From Magnolia sinica (taxonomy: Eukaryota; Streptophyta; Magnoliopsida; Magnoliales; Magnoliaceae): a DNA stretch of 64,000 nucleotides. Location: assembly GCF_029962835.1 (NCBI RefSeq), contig NC_080582.1:21894032-21958031 (forward strand). The letters are read 5' to 3'. Shown here piece by piece: positions 6,967 through 64,000 of this stretch. A model generated the notes under the pieces. It searched no databases. It was given only the letters and a program-made list of their open reading frames with translations, and was not told the origin of the DNA. A program made the translations under genes and the position numbers. The number at the start of each line of letters is the position of its first letter. Within the stretch, counting starts at the first letter, position 1.

Positions 6967-8475
6967 ATGGACCCCTTAGTTAATCGAGATCCGACTGTAA
7001 TGGATAGGGAGTGGATGACACTAAGTTTCCCAGACCCATGTTTTATTTCTGGAATGGGAAGCTTTTCAAAGTTTGCACGAGAAAACCTTCCTGGTAGAAA
7101 AACCGTTCTTTGTCCATGCACCACTTGTAGATGTGCACGTTTTTCGGTTTCTTATGATGATTTAGAAATACATCTAATGGAAAATGGATTCGACCCAAGC
7201 TATAGGGTTTGGAACATGCATGGGGAGCATGTATCACCTAAGTGTACTGAACGTGAATCAAGTTCTCAACAGTACCACAGTGTCCCAAACTTAAATGAGG
7301 TTCACAACATGATCGTTCAAAAACTTGGTGGTAATAACCTAGATGAAGTTGTACAGGATGAGCCGAATGTGACCCCTATAGTCGAAGACATCTTTGGTGA
7401 AAATGAAACTAATGAGTTTGAAGCAAATCTACGAGACACAATGACTGAGCTATACCCTGGGGCTCAAGATTTCACCGTGCTAACTTTCATTGTACAGCTT
7501 TTCAAATTAAAGGTGAATCATGGATGGAGCGAAAAAAGCTTTACATAGCTCCTTCAACTACTAAAGAAGGTGTTACCTTCCAGTAACAAGGCCCTAACTA
7601 ATACCTACCAAGCGAAGAAGATCATTACAAAGTTGGGTCTTGATTATATGAAGATCCATGCTTGTACTAGAGAGAGAACGAGATGAAAACCATTTGTCCA
7701 AATTGTAAAACTTCTAGGTACAAGACTGAAATGGATTATGAGAGAAAACAATTTCAAGTACCTGCAAAGGTGTTAAGGTATTTTCCATTAACACCAGGGC
7801 TACAAAGAATGTTTAATGTACCATGGTTGGCAAAAGAAATGTCTTGGCACTCAACCAGGAAATTGCAACATGAAAAGATGGAGCATTCGGCTGATTCTAT
7901 TGCATGGAAGAATCTCGATGACAAGTATACGGATTTTTCAGCTGAGCTTCGCAATGTTTGATTAGGTCTGGCTACATGTAGGTTTAGCCCATTAGGCGCT
8001 TTCTGTATGTCGTATAGTTCATGGCCTGTTATGTGTATGACATACAACCTTCCACCAAAGCTTTGCATGAAACCTCAGTTTACTATGTTGACTTTGCTCA
8101 TTGAGGGACCGTAACAACCGGAAAAGGATATTGACGTTTATTTACAGTCATTGATTGATGAACTGCAAGACTTATGACGAAAAGGGGTTAACGACGTTCG
8201 ACGCATACCATGAAAACAAATTCAACATGCGTGTCGTTCTGCTCTGGACAATCCACGACTTTCTAGCATATGGTAACGTTTCTGGTTGTAGGATCAAGGG
8301 TAAGTATGGTTGTCCAGTATGTGGTCCCAACATAGATTCTTTGCGACTCCAATATGGAAAGAAACATATTTATATGAGCCACAAACGGTGGTTGCCAATG
8401 TTAGAACAGGCTAGGAAGGACACAAGTGTTGTCACGTTCAATAAGGTGGAGATCGACGTCAACCGATCCATCTGA
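6967..8475 (+). pseudogene. CACTA (En/Spm) TNP2-like transposase, N-terminal and central part (broken)
   Basis: The first 193 codons (6967-7545) hold the plant transposase-associated domain: MDREWM-like start near residue 8, a zinc-type block CPCTTCRC near residues 50-57, then HLMENGFDPSYRVWNMHGE (residues 70-88). After a stop at 7546-7548 the frame continues with the TNP2 hallmark of short interrupted blocks (AKKIITKLGLDYMKIHAC at 7611-7665, CPNCKTSRYK at 7695-7725, LRYFPLTPGLQRMF at 7774-7815, WLAKEMSWHS at 7826-7855, DFSAELRNV at 7936-7961, YGCPVCG at 8305-8325). Stops and at least one frameshift break it. The rest of the catalytic region seen in full-length TNP2 is missing after 8475. Such transposases move elements whose ends start with CACTA. 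Confidence 0.88.
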
Positions 8476-36843: not shown

Positions 36844-37416
36844 CCCCTAAGACTTCCTCCTTGTCTCCTCATTGAAGAAACAACTAGTCACCTGTTCCAT
36901 GGATATCTTTCCGTCTCGCGCGGAGTTACTTAGAGACACCACCAATGTCTCTCAACTGCCAGGCAATGAACTAAGCAATAGTAAAGCATGCAATTCATCA
37001 TCCAGGACCATCTTCATAGCGGAGAGCTGGTTCACTATATTACTGACCTCATTCATGTGCTCGCCCACAGAACCACCATCCTTGAACTTGAGATTCATAA
37101 ATTGCCTTATCAGAAAATTTTTATCACCGGCTGTCTTCCTCTCATACAGCCCTTCTAGTTTTAGCCATAGGCTAGCGGCTAAGGTTTCCGTAAACACATG
37201 GTGGAATACGGAATCGTACAACCATTGTCTAATAAACCCCACCGCCTTTCGGTCTATCTTCTTCCAATCATCATCATACATATCCTTGGATTTTGCTGAT
37301 ATACCTAAAATTGGAGAATATAGGTCCTTGTAATAAAGCAAGTCCTCCATCTTAGTCATCCATATGGTCCAGTTAGAACCATTGAGGTTGATCATCCTTG
37401 ATGAGCCACCTTCCAT
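36844..37416 (-). pseudogene. Copia gag
   Basis: Minus-strand frame starting ATG at 37416, about 40 bases after the PBS: MEGGSSRMINLNGSNWTIWM, then DRKAVGFIRQWLYDSV, WLKLEGLYERKTAGDKNFLI and HMNEVSNIVNQL, the UBN2-type capsid region of Ty1/copia elements. It remains open to 36952 and then continues with SMEQVTSCFFNEE near 36900. The solo LTR interrupts the frame before the zinc knuckle. Confidence 0.88.
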
Positions 37417-38247: not shown

Positions 38248-38615
38248 AGAGGTTTCCTGAGTTGAGAAGAAACGGAGATCCCCAGTTCCGCTGCAATTTC
38301 TCTACTCGGCGGGGGGAAAAAAGGGACCAGAGAGTGTTTGGCAAGGAGAGAAAGCCACCATTTCACCTCAGATATGACCTCCACCGCCGAAATAGGCTTC
38401 CCGGCTCGAGCTCCGTGCAGTGCATCAAACATTTTCTCATAATCAAAGCTAACAAATTTTTCTTAAAGAAGAAAGCCATGTAATATGCCTCCCAAAAGGT
38501 AACAAAAGCGTGCAGTGATTTCTTGAGCCAGAGGGAGATTAGCTCTTGAGTGCGAAGGCAAAAGGAAGCTTGATTGCAAGACCCACCTGTTGGCAGGGAT
38601 GAAAGTAAGCCTCAG

Positions 38616-39088
38616 TGATCTAACAGTGACAAGTGGAATGACTCTTAATCAATGGATAAAATTTAGTCAAGAGATAATAGGCTAATATTTCCAAAAACAT
38701 GTTTACTCAAATACATCTGCATATTGCATTATGATAGATACATTGGGACTTGAGCCTTTAAACGCCAGCCATCTTTCAATGATCCAAACTGTTTACATGA
38801 CAAGTCTCACTTCGTACCGTGGAAAGATAACAAATAGAAACTAGAGATTTGATTACTTCAACCCTTTAAGAATTTGCCTCTTCTGCTTAGATGTTTGAAC
38901 ATGAATGGTCACTATCACTTTTATATTAATAATGGATTAAAATTTTCAATCTGAGAGTTGTTATGGGCACCAAGGCATTTAAGAGAGTCTTATCAAATAA
39001 ACAATCTGGATCATTGAAAAAGGCTCAAATCTAACAACTATAGTCCTCACATATCTTAATTTAGTAAGTTGAGATGTCTTGGAGCGAA
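38616..39088. other. Unassigned sequence
   Basis: AT-rich, no feature recognised. Confidence 0.4.
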
Positions 39089-47564: not shown

Positions 47565-47852
47565 GTACAGTCCTGGAGCGAATAAGAAGTTACCTTTTGT
47601 TTCAACCCCCGAGAAAGTGATAGATTGGCTACTCCCCCTGCCACCGGCTAATGGCTAGTTCTTGGTGCTCCGTGGGCCCCACCATGATGTATATCCATGC
47701 CGTCCATATATTTTTCCAGATCATTTTATGGTATGAGATAAAAAAATGAGGTATATCCCAATATCAAGTCAACCACATTACAAGGAAACAGTGTTGAATG
47801 AGTGTATACCATTAAAAACTTTTTGGGGGCCATAAAAGTTTTGGATCAAGCT

Positions 47853-47854
<2 letters not shown>

Positions 47855-47894
<40 letters not shown>
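47855..47894. repeat. (TC)n microsatellite
   Basis: About 20 units in the left arm; the right arm has an A-rich run instead. Confidence 0.95.
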
Positions 47895-47897
<3 letters not shown>

Positions 47898-48489
47898 TGT
47901 GTCTGTATGACGTAATCAACAGATTGGATGTCAAAGAGGAAGTGAACACGTGAATACCACAATCCAAACAACATAACAACCATGACTCATATGCAAACAA
48001 CGATCCATATGGGCCTACATTGATATATGTGTATAATTCATGTCGCCTATCCTTTTTATCATGTCATTTTATGGGTAGGGCCCAAATATTAGCCTGATAC
48101 GGTGCTCGTGTAGGCCACAAAAAAGAAAATAATGGTAACTATAGAAACTTTTCAGGCTCACTGTGATGCTTGTTAGAAGTGGATACTGCCCAAGTCAGGA
48201 CTTTTTGGGCCCACGGCGAGCTGGCCGACAAGATGGATGGATTGGATCACCCAATTGTGGGGCCTTAAGCTATGGTACCAATGGTTTGGTATAAAATGAA
48301 GTGAACACGTTGCAAACCACGATCTATGCAACATGACAACCACGACCCATATAACATGGCAACTACGACCTACGCAAACCACGACCCATATGGGCCCACA
48401 TTGATGTATGTGTATAATCCATGCTGCCCACATTGATGTATATGTATAATCCATGGGCCCACTGTGATGTTTGTTAGAAGTGGATACTG

Positions 48490-48970
48490 CCCAAGTTATA
48501 TGGGTCGTGGTTGTCATGTTATATAGGTCGTGGTTGTCATGTTATATAGGTCCTGGTTGTCATGTTATATGGGTCGTGGTTGATATAGGTCATGGTTATC
48601 ATCCGAGTCATGGTTATCATGTTATATGGATCGCGGTTGTCATGTTATGTGGGTCGTGGTTGATATAGGTCGTGGTTGTCATCCGGGTTGTGGTTATCAT
48701 GTTATATGGGTCGTAGTTGATATAGGTGGTTGTCAATTGTCATGTTATATGGGTCGTAGTTGTATGAGTCGTGGTTGTCATCCGGGTCGTGGTTATCATG
48801 TCATATGGGTCGTGGTTGTCATGTTATGTGGGTCGTGGTTGATATAGATCGTGGTTGTCACGGATCGTAGTTATCATGGATTGAGGTTGTTACGTGACGT
48901 GTGCAGTTCGTGGTTGTAACGTAATAAGGGTCGATGTTGTCGTGTTATAAGGATCGTGGATCGTGTCATG
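48490..48970. repeat. 23 bp minisatellite, left arm
   Basis: Units like GGTCGTGGTTGTCATGTTAT plus ATG, some shortened to GGTCGTGGTTGATATA. Confidence 0.85.
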
Positions 48971-49199
48971 ATTTATGTGTCGAATCCAATCAGTCCATTG
49001 GATTTAGAATTTAATTTAACATCATGAGGCCAAAAACTGAATTACATCAAAAAAATGTATGCCCTAAAAGGTTTTCAATGGTAGGTTTTCAATTTCATTG
49101 CTTTCTATGGTGTGGTCCACATAAGCCTTTGATATGCCTCATTTTTTGGCTCATTCCTTAAAATGATCTTTCAAAATGAATGGATGACGCAGAAAGATT

Positions 49200-49680
49200 G
49201 GATTCATACACGACCCATATAACATGACAACCACGATCCAAAAAACATGATAACCACAATCAATATAACATGATAACCGCAGCCCACGTCAACCACGACC
49301 CATATAATAGGATAACTGCGACCCATATAACAGGACAACTGCGATCTATACAACCGCGACCCATATAACAGGACAACTACGACCCATATAACATGAAAAC
49401 TGCGATCCATATAACTGTGACCCATATAACAGGACAACTGCTACCCATCTAACATGACAACTACAACCCATATAATAGGACAATTGTGATTCATATAACA
49501 GGAAAACTGCGACCCATATAACATGACAACTGCGACTCATACAACTGAGACCCATATAACAGGACAACTAAGACCCATATAACATGACAACTACGATCCA
49601 TACAACTGCAGCCCATTTGGGTCGTGGTTTGCATGGGTCGTAGTTGCCATGTTGTATGGATCGTGGTTGTCATGTGCACC
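49200..49680. repeat. 23 bp minisatellite, right arm (inverted)
   Basis: Units like CGACCCATATAACATGACAA plus CTA, the reverse complement of the left arm unit. Open frames here follow from a repeat unit without stops. Confidence 0.85.
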
Positions 49681-50737
49681 ACCAGATGAAAACAATAGTG
49701 ATTAGATATCCACCATTAAAATCCTCTTAAGGCCCACTGTACTGTTTATTTGACATCCAATTTGTCGATTAGGTCATACAGACACAGATGAAGGTAAAAA
49801 AAAAAAAGAGATCATCTTGATCCAAAACTTTTATGGCCCCCAAAAAGTTTTTAATGGTCTATGCTCATTCAACACTGTTTCCTGTAATGTGGTTGACCTG
49901 ATATTGGGATATACCTCATTTTTTGGTCTCATACCATAAAATGATCCGGAAAAATATATGGACGGCACGGATGAAACACATACATCAAGGTTGGGCCCAC
50001 AGCGGACCGAGCACCAGCCATTGGCCGGTGGCAGGGGGAGTAGCCAATCCATCACTTTCTCAGGGGTTGAAACAAAAGGTAACTTCTTATTCACTTCAGG
50101 ACCGTACAACTTCTGATCCAAGGACATGGACATTTTCCTCCAAAACAATATCCAAAGCTTGTTAGAAGGCCACTCTTAGGATATATGGAACGTCGTAGCT
50201 TTCTAGGTAAGTTGCCCAAACTTCGAGGTCAGTACGGTCAAAATCCCTTAAGTTTATGAAATGGTGGGGCCACGCTCGCCATCCCACGATTGGGCTGCAT
50301 ATGAGGAAGAACGCTAGCAAGAACCGGAACTAAGGTGCTGTTACTATCCTGATGCACATTACTAAATTGGCATTATTAATCAAACTAATTTGGTGCAACA
50401 TATCCCAAAATTTCATAATATTTGGTGCAACTAGGCACAACTTCAGTTAAAAAAATCTACAAGTAGTCTGTACCTTACACTGCAACCATGTAGCGACACC
50501 ACATACTTCCAACGTGGTGAACATTGCGCCACACGTCTATTTAAAACATTGATCCAAACATACAAACATTTTCTGAATCAGGTGGTAAATAATGTTGGAA
50601 AACATAATCATTATAGTAATCCAAGTCCACACCATGAATTCCTTGTAAAAGCCCTCATCCTAGTAAGACTAATAATTTTCTAATGCATAGATACATATCT
50701 AAGAAGGAAGCGAGAAATACCAAACAAGAAAATGTGC

Positions 50738-57159: not shown

Positions 57160-59007
57160 TCATGACAGCTCATCCTCGACCAATTTCCCATCATCATCGT
57201 GATAACGGATGATATTGGGGATGTGCTGGACCTTGAAGTGGTCCTCTCCACCCTTCTTTACCCTGTCCATGAATTCTTCGCCCATGTCCTCCAAGGCTAG
57301 TTGTTGAAGAGCGGCAAGATGCTGAAATCCGTCCGGGAGCTTCTTTAAATTTGGACATTTAGAAATGTGGAGATAGTCAAGGCATGGCATGGTACCCTCA
57401 TCTATGCTGCTCCACTCCTCCAATGCTTCCATTTCTTGTAATGACAAAGTTCTGAGCTTAGGAAATCCTCCGACCGTACAACCAATCCGCTTCCCCATAT
57501 AAGCATTCAGTAGAAGAAGGTACACCAGATTGGGTAAATGTCCTAGAGCTGTGAGTGGGTCACTTGTTAATTGGGTGTCAACAAAGAAGATCACCCGCAC
57601 ACAGTTGAGAGAGCCGACCCAAACCGGCAACTCCTTCATCACGCCTCCCACTCTTAGTTTCTCAAGATACTGCGGAGGCCTCGACACTGTTTGTAACTGG
57701 AGCCGCTCATTCTCATCAAAAGCATATATTTTGAGGGAACGCAGGTGTTGCAACTGACTAATGGAATTGCATAGTTCTGCACAGCATTCTTCTTTAACCT
57801 CAACATTTAATTTCCTAAGTTGGGTTAACTCACCCAATTCTCTCGATAATCTATCATCAACAAACGCACCTGATAATGTTTGGAGGTTACGTAAATTGAT
57901 TGCTCCGCTTGGCATCTTAAGGTATTCAACAAAGAGAAGATGCCTCAATTGCAGCAGCATCTCTGTTCCAGCAGGCAAGCATTCCAAATTGGAATCCCTG
58001 ACATCCAATGTCTGTAAGTTATGCAATCTTCCTATTGAAGTCGGCAGGTTCTTGATCTGTGTCCTCCTCAAGCTTAAATACCGTAAGTGAATTAGGCCAC
58101 CCACTTCGTCCGGTAGATTCTTGACTTGAATGCCATCGAGATCTAGTATTCTCAGCAGCTTAAAATCTAATAATGTTCTGCGTAATGAGGAAGGAAAGTC
58201 ATTTACATTATTTACAAAGAGTGACCGAGGATTCAAATTGACCATACTAGATAGAATGCCAATTTCACAGTTTTGAATTGCTAAATGGCGTTGCTTTCCA
58301 TCCACCTTGGTGTCTCGGTTTGTTATGATTGTCCCAAACCCTTCCTTCTTAAACATATAGATAGCGATGTCACGCATGAGGTCATGCACTTGACACGCTA
58401 TCAACTCCCCTGTAAAGTCTTCAAAGATAGGCTGGAGGAGGCTTCTGTTAATGAGCTGAACAAAGTAATCACTTGAGACCTCCTCCAGCGTCTTCCCTGG
58501 ACTCTCCTCAACGAAGCCTTCAGCCACCCATATGCGGATCAGCTTCTTTCTCTTGATTACATGATCCTCAGGGAACATACCACAACACAAGAAACAGTAC
58601 TCGAGGTGAGGAGGTAAATAACGGTAGCTCATGAGCAGGGCTTCGTTCAATCTTGCAAGATCTTCGTTGTGGCTCAATTCCCAGTCCGGATTTTTTAATA
58701 CATTATTCCATTCAAAAGCATCCATGCTCTTCTTCGACATGAGGCCGCCTATAGCCGCGATTGCAAGTGGTAAGCCTTTGCATCTTCTGACCAGGGCTTC
58801 TCCCACTCCGACCAAGTGCTGTGGGCAAGTCCCTTTGGGGTCTTTATCCCAAAAGGCCTTTCTGCAGAAGAGCTCCCAACCCAAATCATCAGATAATGGC
58901 TCGAGTTCATGTATGTTACATCTCTCGCCCACGGGAGAAGCTACATTTTGCATGCGGGTGGTGAAGATGATCTTGCCTCTGCCCTCACGAGGCAGAGCAT
59001 GCTTCAT
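57160..59007 (-). CDS. CC-NBS-LRR (RPM1/RPP13-like) resistance protein, 5'-truncated and fused to an LTR
   Basis: 615 codons from the ATG at 59007 without a stop. Residues 6-18 hold the RNBS-B motif (GRGKIIFTTR), 76-91 the GLPL motif (CKGLPLAIAAIGGL), about 136-166 RNBS-D (YCFLCCGMFPED, then WVAEGFV) and 207-209 VHD in the MHD position. LRRs run from about residue 280 to 600. The spelling is that of CC-type NLRs, intracellular immune receptors. The coiled coil, P-loop and kinase-2 are missing: the sequence starts just after where kinase-2 would be, exactly at the end of a Tat LTR. The ATG spans the junction. Without nucleotide-binding motifs it should not switch like a full NLR. The remaining frame has no obvious damage, which fits a recent insertion or continued use. 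Possible readings: dead allele, or LTR-driven truncated product. Confidence 0.85.
   Translation of the reverse strand: MKHALPREGRGKIIFTTRMQNVASPVGERCNIHELEPLSDDLGWELFCRKAFWDKDPKGTCPQHLVGVGEALVRRCKGLPLAIAAIGGLMSKKSMDAFEWNNVLKNPDWELSHNEDLARLNEALLMSYRYLPPHLEYCFLCCGMFPEDHVIKRKKLIRIWVAEGFVEESPGKTLEEVSSDYFVQLINRSLLQPIFEDFTGELIACQVHDLMRDIAIYMFKKEGFGTIITNRDTKVDGKQRHLAIQNCEIGILSSMVNLNPRSLFVNNVNDFPSSLRRTLLDFKLLRILDLDGIQVKNLPDEVGGLIHLRYLSLRRTQIKNLPTSIGRLHNLQTLDVRDSNLECLPAGTEMLLQLRHLLFVEYLKMPSGAINLRNLQTLSGAFVDDRLSRELGELTQLRKLNVEVKEECCAELCNSISQLQHLRSLKIYAFDENERLQLQTVSRPPQYLEKLRVGGVMKELPVWVGSLNCVRVIFFVDTQLTSDPLTALGHLPNLVYLLLLNAYMGKRIGCTVGGFPKLRTLSLQEMEALEEWSSIDEGTMPCLDYLHISKCPNLKKLPDGFQHLAALQQLALEDMGEEFMDRVKKGGEDHFKVQHIPNIIRYHDDDGKLVEDELS
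59002..59006. other. Predicted 5 bp target-site duplication of the Tat element (one side)
   Basis: CTTCA adjoins the TGTTG end of the LTR at 59007. The other copy should lie beyond the 5' LTR, outside the window. Confidence 0.5.
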
Positions 59008-59551
59008 GTTGATGCAAATGTCCGATTCCTCCTCTTGGACCTTCGTGTACCTGCACAAAAGAAAAAGGGACAAAGGAGACCCTGGCTTGAGCAGGGGACC
59101 CTCCGATGCCAAAGTCAGGCTTGGATTCTAGGTCTAAGAGTATTGAGGAGCTTTTTAGAGAGGATTTTTTCCGTACCTCTCAAGGTGACAGGGGTCCTTC
59201 TTTTATAGCTACTGGGGCGTATGTCGCACGAGGATTCTCTTCCCGATATTGAGCGCGGGATCTTCTCCTGGGATCACGGGGATAGGATCGTGCCCATCTT
59301 GAGCCTTCATCCGATCCCATGAGCTTCGGGGTCGGAGATCTTATCCCAAGATATTCGGGATGAGGCTCGTCCTAGTGATGGTCGGTCTGGCAGGGTGGTC
59401 CGCCCGACGCATGCCCGGGACGCTGATGAGTCGTCCGAACCGACTCAACCTTTGTCTCGGTTTAGCGCACCATGCCTCGGACTTGACACATCCTTTTGTG
59501 ATCCGAGGCATTAAGTCCGAGTCTGCGGACTTGTATTTTTTATCCCCAACA
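59007..59551 (-). repeat. 3' LTR of the Tat element
   Basis: On the minus strand begins TGTTGGGGATAAA after the purine tract and ends GCATCAACA, giving TGTTG..CAACA ends, 545 bp. The right border is secured by the purine tract and the left border by the resumption of NLR coding sequence. The second LTR is outside the window, so the ends are not confirmed by alignment. Confidence 0.8.
59201..59209 (-). promoter_or_regulatory. TATA box of the Tat 3' LTR, facing the NLR fragment
   Basis: CTATAAAAG on the minus strand. A start 25-35 bases downstream (about 59170) would give a leader of about 165 nt whose first ATG is the junction codon at 59007. Confidence 0.6.
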
Positions 59552-59568
59552 GTAAGCCCCCCCTACTC
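59552..59568 (-). other. Polypurine tract of the Tat element
   Basis: GAGTAGGGGGGGCTTAC on the minus strand, directly before the LTR's TG. Confidence 0.85.
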
Positions 59569-59858
59569 CGTGTGTTTCATATGACACTTAGGAGTAGCGA
59601 GTTTTGAGTCGGTTCATAACCCAGTCCGAGACAGTAGGTGGTCATTTAATGCGTTCCATGTCGCCTTTGACGGGAGGCGGTTCGGTTCCTGACATCGCAT
59701 GCGCCGTCAGCCGTCAAGTCGCTCATCCCGCCAATGAGGGTTGGACACGTAGCAAGGGCATTATTGTCGTCAGTCGACGAGCGCCACGTGTCGAGTGGGG
59801 GAATCGATGCAGGCGTCGAATCATTTCCTCATTAATTACTCCCGCCGTATGGCGATCT

Positions 59859-59865
59859 TATAAAT
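59859..59865 (+). promoter_or_regulatory. TATA box for the antisense ORF of the Tat element
   Basis: TATAAAT about 180 bases upstream of the ATG at 60043, followed by a CT-rich leader with TTCTTCC words. It faces away from the LTR and suits independent expression of the + strand ORF. Confidence 0.5.
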
Positions 59866-60042
59866 TGGTGGGGGTCCGCATTTTGAACTTCTATTGTCAT
59901 TCCTACTTTTCATTCCCTTTGGAGCCTTCTCAGTCTTTCATCTTCTTCCTTTCCTCTCTCTTAACCGTCAGCGCTTCCTTCCGCCATTTCCGTTTTCGTT
60001 TCTCCCTCCGGTGAGTTTCTTCTCCCTCTCTATTAGATAATA

Positions 60043-62335
60043 ATGGCGGATAGGGGTTCTCGAAGTCCCCAGGGGGGAGCTTCCGGAGACGAAGGCGAAG
60101 CGCAACGTTTTTGGAATGTTGCGGAATCGCCTTCCTTACTGACGGAGATAGCAGTGGATGCCAACGCTGCTTTTCTATCTGAGAGAGTCGCTGAAGCTCC
60201 GGCGGAGCGCCCTGCTTCTGTTGTTCCTTCTCGTGGTGGGTCGTCTTTATTAACCCGCCCGGGAAGGCCTAACTTCCCAAGGGGCATGGAGGAAGATGAG
60301 GAGGAAGAAGATGAAATGTTGATTGCCGAGGGAACCTCCGACCCAGTTCCCGTTGACGAACCGGCGCATGCCGAGTCTGAAGGAGAAGGATCGGGGGAAG
60401 ATTTAAGCGGTCCAGTTCCCTCAGTTTTAACTGAGGCGGACTTAGACAGAATCCGGATCGGGTATCACATCCCTGAATCGGTCATCACCTATCTCCCCCG
60501 TCCAAATGATTTGCCGGATCACCCTCCTGCTGGGGCGGTCGCCATTTACCAAGTGTCAATGCAATGCGGCTTGCGTCTGCCCCTTTAGGCCATCGTCCGG
60601 GGAGTATTGTCTCGCATTCAGATTGCCCCGGGGCAGATAGTCCCGAATGGGTGGAGAAATTTATTCGGGTGTGCGGTGTTGTGGGCCGAGATGGAACAGC
60701 CACCGCTCACAGTCGACGAATTTCTCCACCTGTACCAAGTGCGGATGAATCCGAACTACCCTGGCTTCTACGTCTTCGCTGCTTGGCGAGGCGGAGGCGG
60801 TTCCTTGATAACTGACCCTCCCACTTCCAACAAACATTGAAGAGAGCGTTGGTTTTGGGCATGTGGTCGTTGGGAGACTGATGACTCCGGGTTTTACGAG
60901 GCTCGTGTTCCTCGGACATTCCAGAGGGCAGGTGACTTGGGTTCTCTCTCTCTCGTCCTTTTTCATTTTTTGTAATATTCTGAGTCTAAACTTGTGTCCA
61001 GCAGATATCCCGAAGAAGCGGGCGAAGCGGCTTCAGTGCCTCGGCTCGGATCAAAGAGTTGAGGACGTTGGATCCGTCAAGTCTTGGAAGGTGCTTCTAC
61101 AGGAACGCCTTCATCTTGCAGTTCTGGACGGAAGTCACGGGTAATTGAAAATGTGTCTTCTGAGTTTCTGAATTTTTCCCGACTTACTTCGTTTTTTTTT
61201 TTTTTTTTTTTTTTTTACGATCTTATGAACAGGTCCCAATCTCAGGATTATTCACGAGCCGGCTCCCTCAGAAATGACTGGAGCTCGTCCTCCCCTTAGG
61301 GCAGTCACGAAGTTGAAGGCTCCTCCGCGGTCAGTTCTTTTGTCGGAGCCTCGGCCGCCTAAGAGGCAAAAGGTGGTGCGGAAGGAGAAAGAGCCAGCGA
61401 GTTCTTCTGCCCCTCCCGTCGTCGTAATTCCCGACCCAGAAGAAAGGGCTGAAGAGACGGCGGTTGCTGCCTCGGAACCTCAGGCGGCACCCGACTCGGC
61501 AAACGTTAAGACGGACGTTCCGAGACGGGAGGAAGAGACCAGGGCCGCGTCTTCCAGAGGGGAAGGTGAGACGAGGACCGCATCCTCCAGAGGGGAGGAG
61601 ACGAACCAGGAAGGGCCGTCTGTCCTGCAGCAAGTGGTATCGGGGATGGTTCCCTGGGCCTTAGCCCACGGGGGCGAAAGAGAGTTCGTGAGGCTCTATA
61701 ACGCCCCGTCATCGCAAACCGTCAGCCATGCAGCGAGGATGCTTTTCGAACTCGCTCCCTGCTTGATTAAGGCCAGCAAGGAGCTATCCTCAACTCATCG
61801 GCTGCAGACCCTTCTGTCAGAAGCTGAAGGGCGGCGCGAGGAGGCCGAAATCCGGGTCGGCATCCTGACAGGCGAGGCGGCTCTTGCCCGAAAGGCTGCC
61901 AAAGATGCGGGAGCAGAGGCGGCTTCCTCCAGAAGAGCCTTGGATGAAGCGAGAGCGGAGGTCGCTCGGGTACTGGCTCTGCTCTCCGAGGCTGAAGAAG
62001 AGAACCGGCGAATTCTCGCAGTTCATGCTTCGTGCGCAGATGACTTAGCTCAGGCTAAGCTTAAGGCGGCGGAGCGTATTCGACAGGCCGACGAGAAGGC
62101 TCGGGAGGCTGAGAAGGCCAGGGACCAAGCCGTCCAAGCTTTCCTTGAGTCGGCAGAGTTCGAGGACGAGAGGGACCGCTTGTTCCAAAGCGGATATCTG
62201 GAATGCGTCAAGGATATAAAGGAATCTTTTCCTGACCTTGACCTTTCGGAAATCAAGGGTGGAGCAGCCCCGGAACCCGAGAACCCGGACGCCGCTGCCG
62301 AAGACACTGCTGCTGGGGGCGAGGCCGGTGCATGA
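60043..62335 (+). pseudogene. Antisense extra ORF of the Tat element (plant putative gypsy-type transposon protein)
   Basis: Three apparent exons: 60043-60931, 61005-61140 and 61233-62335, with GT..AG introns (the second has a long T run). Exon 1 holds an acidic N-terminus, then the conserved core (RIRIGYHIPESV, CGLRLPL, APGQIVPNGWRNLFGC, FYVFAAW). Exon 2 carries RIKELRTLDPSSLG and FWTEVTG. Exon 3 encodes a charged region with two AASSRGEGE-type repeats and a long Ala/Glu/Arg coiled coil ending in an acidic tail. The function of this family is unknown. In-frame stops at 60586-60588 and 60838-60840 and a phase mismatch between exons 1 and 2 indicate decay, while exon 3 is open for 353 codons from 61274. 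It runs tail-to-tail with pol. Confidence 0.75.
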
Positions 62336-62494
62336 GGACAGTTACCAGGGCCCTTTGATTTTTTTTTCACTTTGATGTAGTCACACATTGTATTTGTACG
62401 TGCTTTGATGAATGAAAGAAAAATACTTAGCTTTATTCATTTGATTTGGCTTTAACCTTTCTTAGTTCAGAGTCTTTAAACATTGAGTACCGAG
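62336..62494. other. Gap between convergent antisense ORF and pol
   Basis: AT-rich 3' ends of both units, with AATGAAAGAAAAATA near 62409 as a possible poly(A) region for the + strand ORF. Confidence 0.5.
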
Positions 62495-64000
62495 CTAGGG
62501 ATAGTAGACCTTGAGGTGTTCAGCGTTCCAAGGGTGAGGCAATGGTTGTCCGTTTAGGTCTTCTAGCCGATACGTTCCTGGTCGTATGGTGCCCGAGACG
62601 ATATAGGGTCCTTCCCAATTGGGTCCCAGCGTACCCGATCCAAATTCCTTGGTGTTGGAGAAAACTTTCCGGAGAACCATATCTCCCATTCGAAACCTTC
62701 TAACCTTAACTCGGGTATTGTAGAACCGAGCCACTTGTCGTTGCCGCGCCTCCGTGCGCAGCCGCGCCACTTCCCTTTGTTCGTCCAAAAGGTCGAGTCC
62801 GAGTGCAAGGAGTTCTTCATTCTCTTCTGCATTGAATGAGGTGATTCGAGCCGAAGGTAATCCGACTTCAACGGGAGTGACGGCTTCCGAGCCATAAGCT
62901 AGTGAAAACGGAGTCTCTCCTGTGGCTGTTCGAGCTGTAGTTCGGTAAGCCCAAAGAATCTTCGGGAGCTCTTCGGCCCATGCTCCTTTGGCCCGGCCAA
63001 GCTTGGTCCGAAGATGTTGCTTGATAATCTTGTTAACCGCCTCAACCTGTCCGTTGGTTTGAGGGTGATGAGGTGAAGAATAAACGTTTCTGATTCCGAG
63101 GTTGTCGCACATCTCGCGAAAGCTCCTATTATCAAATTGCCTTCCATTGTCTGTGACAATGGTACGGGGCACTCCGAATCGGCAGATAATGTTTTTCCAC
63201 ACAAACTCGGTGATCTTCTGCTCGGTTATTTTAGCTAATGGCTCCGCCTCGGCCCACTTCGTGAAATAGTCCACTGCTACCACGGCAAACTTGGTCTGAC
63301 CTTTTCCCATAGGGAGCGGGCCTATGATGTCGACACCCCATTGTGCGAAGGGCCAGGGACCAGTCATCGGCGTCAGTGCCTCGGGGGCTTGCCTCGAAAT
63401 TGCTGCGAATCGTTGACATTTGTCGCATTTTTGGACGAGCTGGCGAGCGTCGTGTTGGATAGTGGGCCAGTAATATCCCTGTCGTAGGACCTTATGGGCG
63501 AGAGATCGCCCTCCAGAGTGGTTTCCGCAGATTCCTTCATGGATTTCCCGTAATACATAGTCTGCCTCGCTGGGTTTGAGGCACCGCAGCAACGGGGCGT
63601 AGTAACCTTTCTTATAGAGGGTTCCGTTGAGTATGGTGTAACGGGAGGCTCGGATCTTAATTCGTCGAGCCTCGGCGCGATCCTCGGGCAACTTCCCTTC
63701 GTCAAGGTATTGGCGGATTGGATCGATCCAGGATGGTTCCGAGTTGATTGTATTGACGGCCTCGCTAATTGGTTCATCTATACTCGGCTTATCGACGTAT
63801 TCGACAGGGACGGACCTGGGTATTTCATCTTCATCGGCTGAGGCGAGCTTTGCTAGTAAATCGGCTTTGCTGTTTTCCGTGCGAGGGATCCGAGTGACAC
63901 GACAGAGTTGAAATCCGTTGATAAGTTCTTTCGCTTTCTGCATGTACGCCCTTAACTGGTCTTTTCGTGTCTGGTATACACCGGTAACTTGATTAACAAC
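62495..64000 (-). CDS. Tat pol: end of RNase H and integrase (5' partial)
   Basis: An uninterrupted minus-strand frame that runs off the window edge at 64000. It opens with the last part of RNase H (VVNQVTGVYQTRKDQLRAYM, then VTRIPRTENSKADLLAKLAS). Integrase follows: the HHCC module (HEGICGNHSGG, then CDKCQRFA), the core with Asp in WGVDIIGPLP, Asp in IVTDNGRQF and Glu in NGQVEAVNK, and a C-terminal region (RVKVRRFRMGDMVLRK, NWEGPYIVSG). All catalytic residues are present and there is no stop for over 500 codons, so this pol end looks young. Integrase inserts the element cDNA into nuclear DNA. There is no chromodomain, as expected for Tat. Confidence 0.93.
   Translation of the reverse strand, partial: VVNQVTGVYQTRKDQLRAYMQKAKELINGFQLCRVTRIPRTENSKADLLAKLASADEDEIPRSVPVEYVDKPSIDEPISEAVNTINSEPSWIDPIRQYLDEGKLPEDRAEARRIKIRASRYTILNGTLYKKGYYAPLLRCLKPSEADYVLREIHEGICGNHSGGRSLAHKVLRQGYYWPTIQHDARQLVQKCDKCQRFAAISRQAPEALTPMTGPWPFAQWGVDIIGPLPMGKGQTKFAVVAVDYFTKWAEAEPLAKITEQKITEFVWKNIICRFGVPRTIVTDNGRQFDNRSFREMCDNLGIRNVYSSPHHPQTNGQVEAVNKIIKQHLRTKLGRAKGAWAEELPKILWAYRTTARTATGETPFSLAYGSEAVTPVEVGLPSARITSFNAEENEELLALGLDLLDEQREVARLRTEARQRQVARFYNTRVKVRRFRMGDMVLRKVFSNTKEFGSGTLGPNWEGPYIVSGTIRPGTYRLEDLNGQPLPHPWNAEHLKVYYP

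Follow-up and report, generated by a model that had tools for sequence, protein, structure and literature searches.

Probable disruption of an NLR gene copy of Magnolia sinica by a young retrotransposon whose LTR border forms a start codon

In the window (the whole stretch of 64,000 nucleotides of Magnolia sinica analyzed here, C10:21894032-21958031), a 9.6-kb Ty3-type retrotransposon sits, in the orientation of the gene, within a GTG codon of an RPM1-like CNL gene. We consider it quite probable (roughly 0.8) that this is an insertional disruption, by a young element, of an NLR copy that was probably already failing, and that the start codon now present at the border is fortuitous. The gene is split with a duplication of TGAAG: a broken front part lies upstream of the 5' LTR, an open rear part lies downstream of the 3' LTR, and the border reads ATG, with A as the final base of the LTR and TG as the first two bases of the target. 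Should the 3' LTR be transcribed at all, its leader, which lacks ATG, would leave the junction AUG as the first start codon, and the possible product would be a 615-aa protein of NB-ARC end and LRR, most likely without a selected function.

The LTR border and the junction start codon

The 3' LTR of the Ty3/gypsy-type element (545 bp, TG...CA) occupies positions 59007..59551 of the minus strand, as delimited by matches elsewhere in the genome and by a partner LTR identical at 540 of 545 sites. The genome searched comprises 1,838,573,281 bases, 40 of the 2870 first-look candidates were scored, and the following counts refer to the matches listed: 34 of 39 non-self matches end exactly at 59007, four extend 1-6 bases past it and one ends short. 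The sequence ...GATGATGTGAAG lies immediately before the 5' LTR, and TGAAGCATGC... immediately after the 3' LTR, which gives a target duplication of 5 bp; its second copy, TGAAG, lies at 59002..59006 (minus strand), and the same five bases precede the 5' LTR. Because TGAAG is duplicated at both outer LTR edges, the junction ATG (59005..59007, minus strand) consists of the final A of the LTR and the TG of the target. The sequence-only reading had proposed that the last LTR base and two target bases form ATG at 59007-59005 of the minus strand, a proposal that depended on where the LTR ends, and it is borne out by both the border and the TGAAG copies on the two sides. An LTR border elsewhere was rejected on the same evidence, namely the ends of the family matches and the target duplication. 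The codon in the focal front flank, as in the paralogues L011, L012 and L013, is GTG (Val), by which a native ATG at this position was likewise rejected; the A of the LTR has evidently replaced the G of the native codon.

Upstream of the junction, the motif TATAAAA (59201..59207, minus strand) is likely to be the TATA box of the LTR promoter. It lies on the strand of the NLR frame, 194 bases before the junction, as part of a putative promoter in gene orientation. The stretch between this motif and the junction (59008..59200, minus strand), presumably the R-U5 leader, contains no ATG, nor do the 206 bases counted from just above the TATA box. It had been claimed that no other ATG occurs between the TATA box and the junction codon; this part stands, while the box itself needs to be placed at 59207-59201 and not at 59201-59209. 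The 5' LTR and six other copies have TATAAAA at the same position, and a leader without ATG was found in the 5' LTR and in all six other copies checked. The ATG-free leader is therefore a family property of the LTR.

The junction ATG has A at -3 and A at +4, and a purine at -3 favours initiation. The next ATG downstream, at 59000, is out of frame and opens only 19 codons, and the first in-frame ATG after the junction, at 58953, opens 597 codons. The junction codon thus adds just 18 residues to the protein that would start at 58953 (597 aa), and precedes one out-of-frame ATG.

Flanks were read for 18 of the 19 other listed matches of the 3' LTR type, whose alignments begin at query base 1, the truncated match at C10:5484574 being omitted. 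All 18 of these copies end in AACA, and in none of the 18 is the LTR end followed by TG. Since the LTR ends in AACA in all copies read, the expected frequency of a junction ATG is about 1 in 16, at which 0 of 18 has a probability of 0.31 and is unremarkable. In the downstream NLR frame, NTG codons account for 62 of 614, so an in-frame junction ATG would arise from 62 of 1842 insertion points in the rear part of the gene (about 3.4%). It seems that the start codon arose incidentally from the landing site.

The retrotransposon and the age of its insertion

The whole element spans C10:21953038-21962620 (9583 bp), in the same orientation as the NLR gene, with the partner 5' LTR at C10:21962076-21962620, beyond the window. 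Its internal region, with a polypurine tract, two antisense ORFs and pol, runs from 59552 past the window end (59552..64000, minus strand) and includes a pol ORF with Pfam matches to integrase (rve, H2C2) at 62495..64000 (minus strand), open to the window end. Assignment to Ty3/gypsy agrees with the near-identical LTR pair, the TG...CA ends and the 5-bp target duplication. In the gene order of this group, integrase comes last in pol, ahead of the 3' LTR; here, no minus-strand ORF of at least 150 aa lies between the pol ORF at 62495-64000 and the LTR. Between integrase and the 3' LTR lie two antisense ORFs (181 and 353 aa; 60043-60588 and 61274-62335, plus strand) with no Pfam match; antisense ORFs at this position are typical of Tat-lineage elements.

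Between the two LTRs, 5 of 545 sites are different (0.92%), and their alignment has no gaps. Using the mutation rate of 1.2e-7 per generation and the generation time of 30 years given in the available part of PMC10999834, the insertion age is about 1.15 Myr (95% interval 0.37-2.7), and the insertion thus appears to be young. The same partial source gives the heterozygosity of the Magnolia sinica genome as 1.21%. As the LTR divergence is lower than this value, the insertion may well still segregate, in which case empty and filled alleles would be directly comparable; no near-identical empty site was present among 31 genome matches of the NLR rear part. Many of the listed LTR copies are 95-99% identical, which suggests that the family has been active recently and hence that its promoter probably worked in some cells.

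All five differences between the LTRs are of the C>T type and apparently derived in the 3' LTR, since all six other copies share the 5' LTR state at four of the sites, and five of the six do so at the fifth. Their contexts are CG (two), CHG (two) and CHH (one), and the 5:0 split toward the 3' LTR has a two-sided p of 0.06. Several differences in other LTR copies are likewise of the C>T type. This pattern suggests, although it does not prove, that the 3' LTR, the would-be promoter, is methylated.

We also considered whether the lesions described below or the junction itself could have been misassembled. The assembly is Nanopore-based and represents a repeat-rich, heterozygous tree (PMC10999834, in part), but the target duplication is perfect and the LTR ends on both sides are consistent with the family, and such an artefact seems very improbable to us.

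The split NLR gene

The front part of the NLR gene was found beyond the 5' LTR, outside the window, as 872 nt (L009 722-1593) running from the ATG to GATGATGTGAAG. When front and rear are joined without the element and without one target copy, they match the Magnolia RPM1-like protein P0002 at about 70% in two stretches. The element splits the gene in the GTG (Val) codon, between kinase-2 and RNBS-B, which we take to be the motifs flanking the split site. The sequence-only reading had described an N-terminally cut receptor; this description has to be given up, as the gene is split by the element, and loss of the N-terminus by deletion was accordingly rejected.

In the front part, codon 116 is a TAA stop, 1 nt has been deleted about 15 codons downstream of the P-loop, and the P-loop itself reads ISIEEMGG where the paralogues have ISIVGMGG (VG>EE). 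None of these three changes is present in L011, L012 or L013. With the gene split and its front part broken, the focal copy does not hold an intact CC and P-loop in one frame. The least probable of the explanations that we weighed bears on this point: the native NLR promoter might read through the element, which would be spliced out as a whole to restore the receptor. The LTR does have an acceptor-like site (a pyrimidine tract followed by CAG), and intronization of ONSEN is known (PMC12112155, in part), but because of the stop and the frameshift in the front part, removal of the element by splicing would yield no full receptor, and this form of rescue was rejected.

The probability that all front lesions arose after the insertion is about 2e-4 to 5e-3, an estimate for which we used the LTR-derived rate, assumed the indel ratio and set the P-loop span once the change had been seen. 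The copy was therefore probably damaged before the insertion, which fits a target that was already losing function when the young element arrived. Both frame-breaking lesions fall in the front third, with a probability of about 0.10 if lesions are placed randomly by length, or 0.03 if the P-loop change is counted. As assembly features, these small changes in the front part deserve less trust than the junction.

The 3' part of the gene occupies 57160..59006 (minus strand), covers the NB-ARC end from RNBS-B, the winged helix and the LRR, and is open to its stop. From the junction ATG, the frame runs for 615 codons to a stop at 57160. That it does so without interruption had been noted from the letters, and Pfam confirms the domain content, with the C-terminal part of NB-ARC (profile positions 121-246 of 248), WH_DRP and LRR. 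The 615-aa frame is 72% identical to P0002, and NB-ARC, winged helix and LRR are those of an RPM1-like CC-NB-LRR protein. The late start of the NB-ARC match, at profile position 121 of 248, and the retained LRR are also features of a truncated regulator. A public protein cluster of three members, on a contig with the length of C10 (88,541,654 bases), appears to hold the same 615-aa protein, identical over the full query length, and a gene predictor, possibly with RNA evidence, would thus have chosen the junction start.

The chance that no new stop arose in the rear part since the insertion is 0.44-0.76, and the chance of neither a stop nor an indel is 0.015-0.32, depending on the assumed indel ratio. 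Since the insertion is young and absence of a new stop is so readily expected, the open frame argues only weakly for function, and the 615 open codons were rejected as a sign of selection. It seems that the open rear frame was mostly inherited from a functional past.

Two paralogues with open frames lie on the same contig: L011 (C10:21649462-21651311, 94%, 906 aa), about 300 kb from the focal copy, and L012 (C10:21821880-21823733, 92%, 905 aa), about 128 kb from it. The full-length frame of a third, L013 on C9 (83%), is also open. L011 and L012 are absent as separate entries among the best 120 of 1756 homologues and may be unannotated or hidden within clusters. Many more distant paralogues (about 70-76% DNA identity) are clustered at C10:5.69-6.16 Mb.

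In an alignment of 901 codons, from which gapped codons had been dropped, dN/dS between the focal copy and L011 is 0.49 in the rear part and 0.50 in the front part, and the remaining ten pair values range from 0.39 to 0.56. Counted over codons that are alike in the other three copies, the focal rear part has 6 synonymous and 8 nonsynonymous private changes; 8 of 14 against an assumed neutral share of 0.72-0.76 gives 0.09-0.17, which is not significant. dN/dS is without power for the period after the insertion, and neither dN/dS nor the private-change counts contain a copy-specific signal of selection in either direction. The comparison with intact paralogues proposed in the sequence-only reading thus yields a rear value of 0.49 against L011, but nothing specific to the focal copy. 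At sites where the other three copies agree, private changes in the rear part number 24 in the focal copy, 24 in L011 and 65 in L012, and those in the front part number 33, 7 and 7, respectively. Between the focal copy and L011, dS is 0.091 in the rear versus 0.168 in the front, and divergence is lower at about nt 600-2375 than before that stretch. Gene conversion or constraint could account for the lower rear divergence. The points that we count against disruption of a failing copy are the public 615-aa protein, the restriction of the lesions to the front, the 0.015-0.32 chance of an intact rear, and the lower rear dS.

Possible expression and comparison with known systems

It had further been suggested that the LTR supplies promoter, leader and start codon to the receptor remnant. 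The ATG-free leader and the near-identical LTR copies fit this suggestion; the split gene, its broken front, the weak evidence from the frame and the C>T-type changes speak against it. Transcription from the LTR may extend into the rear part of the NLR gene and yield some protein as functionless noise, which is compatible with the disruption that we favour. New ONSEN insertions gave alternative start and termination sites and short, frame-disrupted transcripts (PMC12112155, available part), and the existence of near-identical copies in the family points to a promoter that is active in some cells, but silencing is likely, and we regard such noise as possible though doubtful.

Another explanation is that the 3' LTR drives a chimeric mRNA whose product, an NLR without CC and P-loop, acts as a decoy or inhibitor of the intact neighbours, as NRG1C does for NRG1A/B. 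The leader without ATG, the junction ATG as first start, the gene orientation of the 3' LTR with its TATA motif kept, the public 615-aa protein and the presence of two intact paralogues at distances of about 128 and 300 kb are all consistent with it. There is also precedent for truncated regulatory NLRs (PMC12315475, in part) and for shortened NLR isoforms started by transposable elements, as in human NAIP (PMC2685007, in part). However, every change in the 3' LTR is of the C>T type, selection could not yet be visible in the sequence of so young an insertion, and NRG1C is conserved in Brassicaceae (PMC12315475) whereas a single young insertion is involved here. We consider a decoy of this kind unlikely. 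Still less likely, in our judgement, is a new gene made in one step, in which LTR promoter, leader and junction start would express a 615-aa, CC-less and P-loop-less NLR that damps or decoys the two intact neighbours and is probably still polymorphic. If this were true, the locus would show a plant immune regulator no more than about a million years after its origin. If the remnant is unexpressed, it is an ordinary pseudogene and illustrates how readers and gene predictors can be misled by an open frame. The locus offers a clean and datable example of a retrotransposon that breaks an immune receptor and at once places a possible promoter and a start codon before the remainder.

Control of NLR genes by transposable elements is well known, as illustrated, in the parts of the sources available, by Renovator at Pit, COPIA-R7 at RPP7 and a solo LTR at RPP4. 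The LTR retrotransposon Renovator upstream of rice Pit gives high transcript levels (PMC7529245, PMC5056178, both in part). An LTR retrotransposon supplies a promoter to an NLR gene at Pit and may do so in Magnolia; Renovator lies upstream of Pit, whereas the Magnolia element splits the coding sequence. In Arabidopsis, an LTR element in or beside an NLR gene likewise shapes its transcripts at RPP7 (COPIA-R7) and at RPP4 (COPIA4), a solo LTR lying upstream of RPP4. In the available part of that source (PMC7529245), the 5' LTR supplies polyadenylation sites and no start codon. LTR elements also interrupt resistance-type genes in Solanum aethiopicum, where such disruption is genome-wide and amplification dates to about 1.25 Myr ago (PMC6771550, in part); that work is a genome-wide count in another plant, and its available parts do not describe a junction start codon.

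Human NAIP resembles the Magnolia locus in that Alu- or LTR-started transcripts encode shortened NLR proteins, but there the transcripts and proteins have been demonstrated, and SINE promoters act within an animal gene (PMC2685007, available part). NRG1C of Arabidopsis differs in that it belongs to the NRG1 family of helper NLRs, is conserved in Brassicaceae and has been tested as a regulator (PMC12315475, available part), whereas the Magnolia copy is of the CC type. A start codon formed at an LTR junction in a plant NLR gene was not found in the titles and abstracts of the literature searched, most subscription journals lying outside that search.

Several further features were observed elsewhere in the window. 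A transposase-associated-domain ORF lies at 6967-7548 (plus strand), and a copia-type gag ORF lies at 36952-37416 (minus strand). A match to bacterial-type LSU rRNA (Rfam RF02541, E 3.4e-16) at 38487-38653 (plus strand) is probably a fragment of organelle DNA in the nuclear genome. In addition, a large inverted repeat at 47565-50107, with arms of 128, 95 and 77 nt at 89-95%, surrounds repeat arrays that are often spaced 23 nt.
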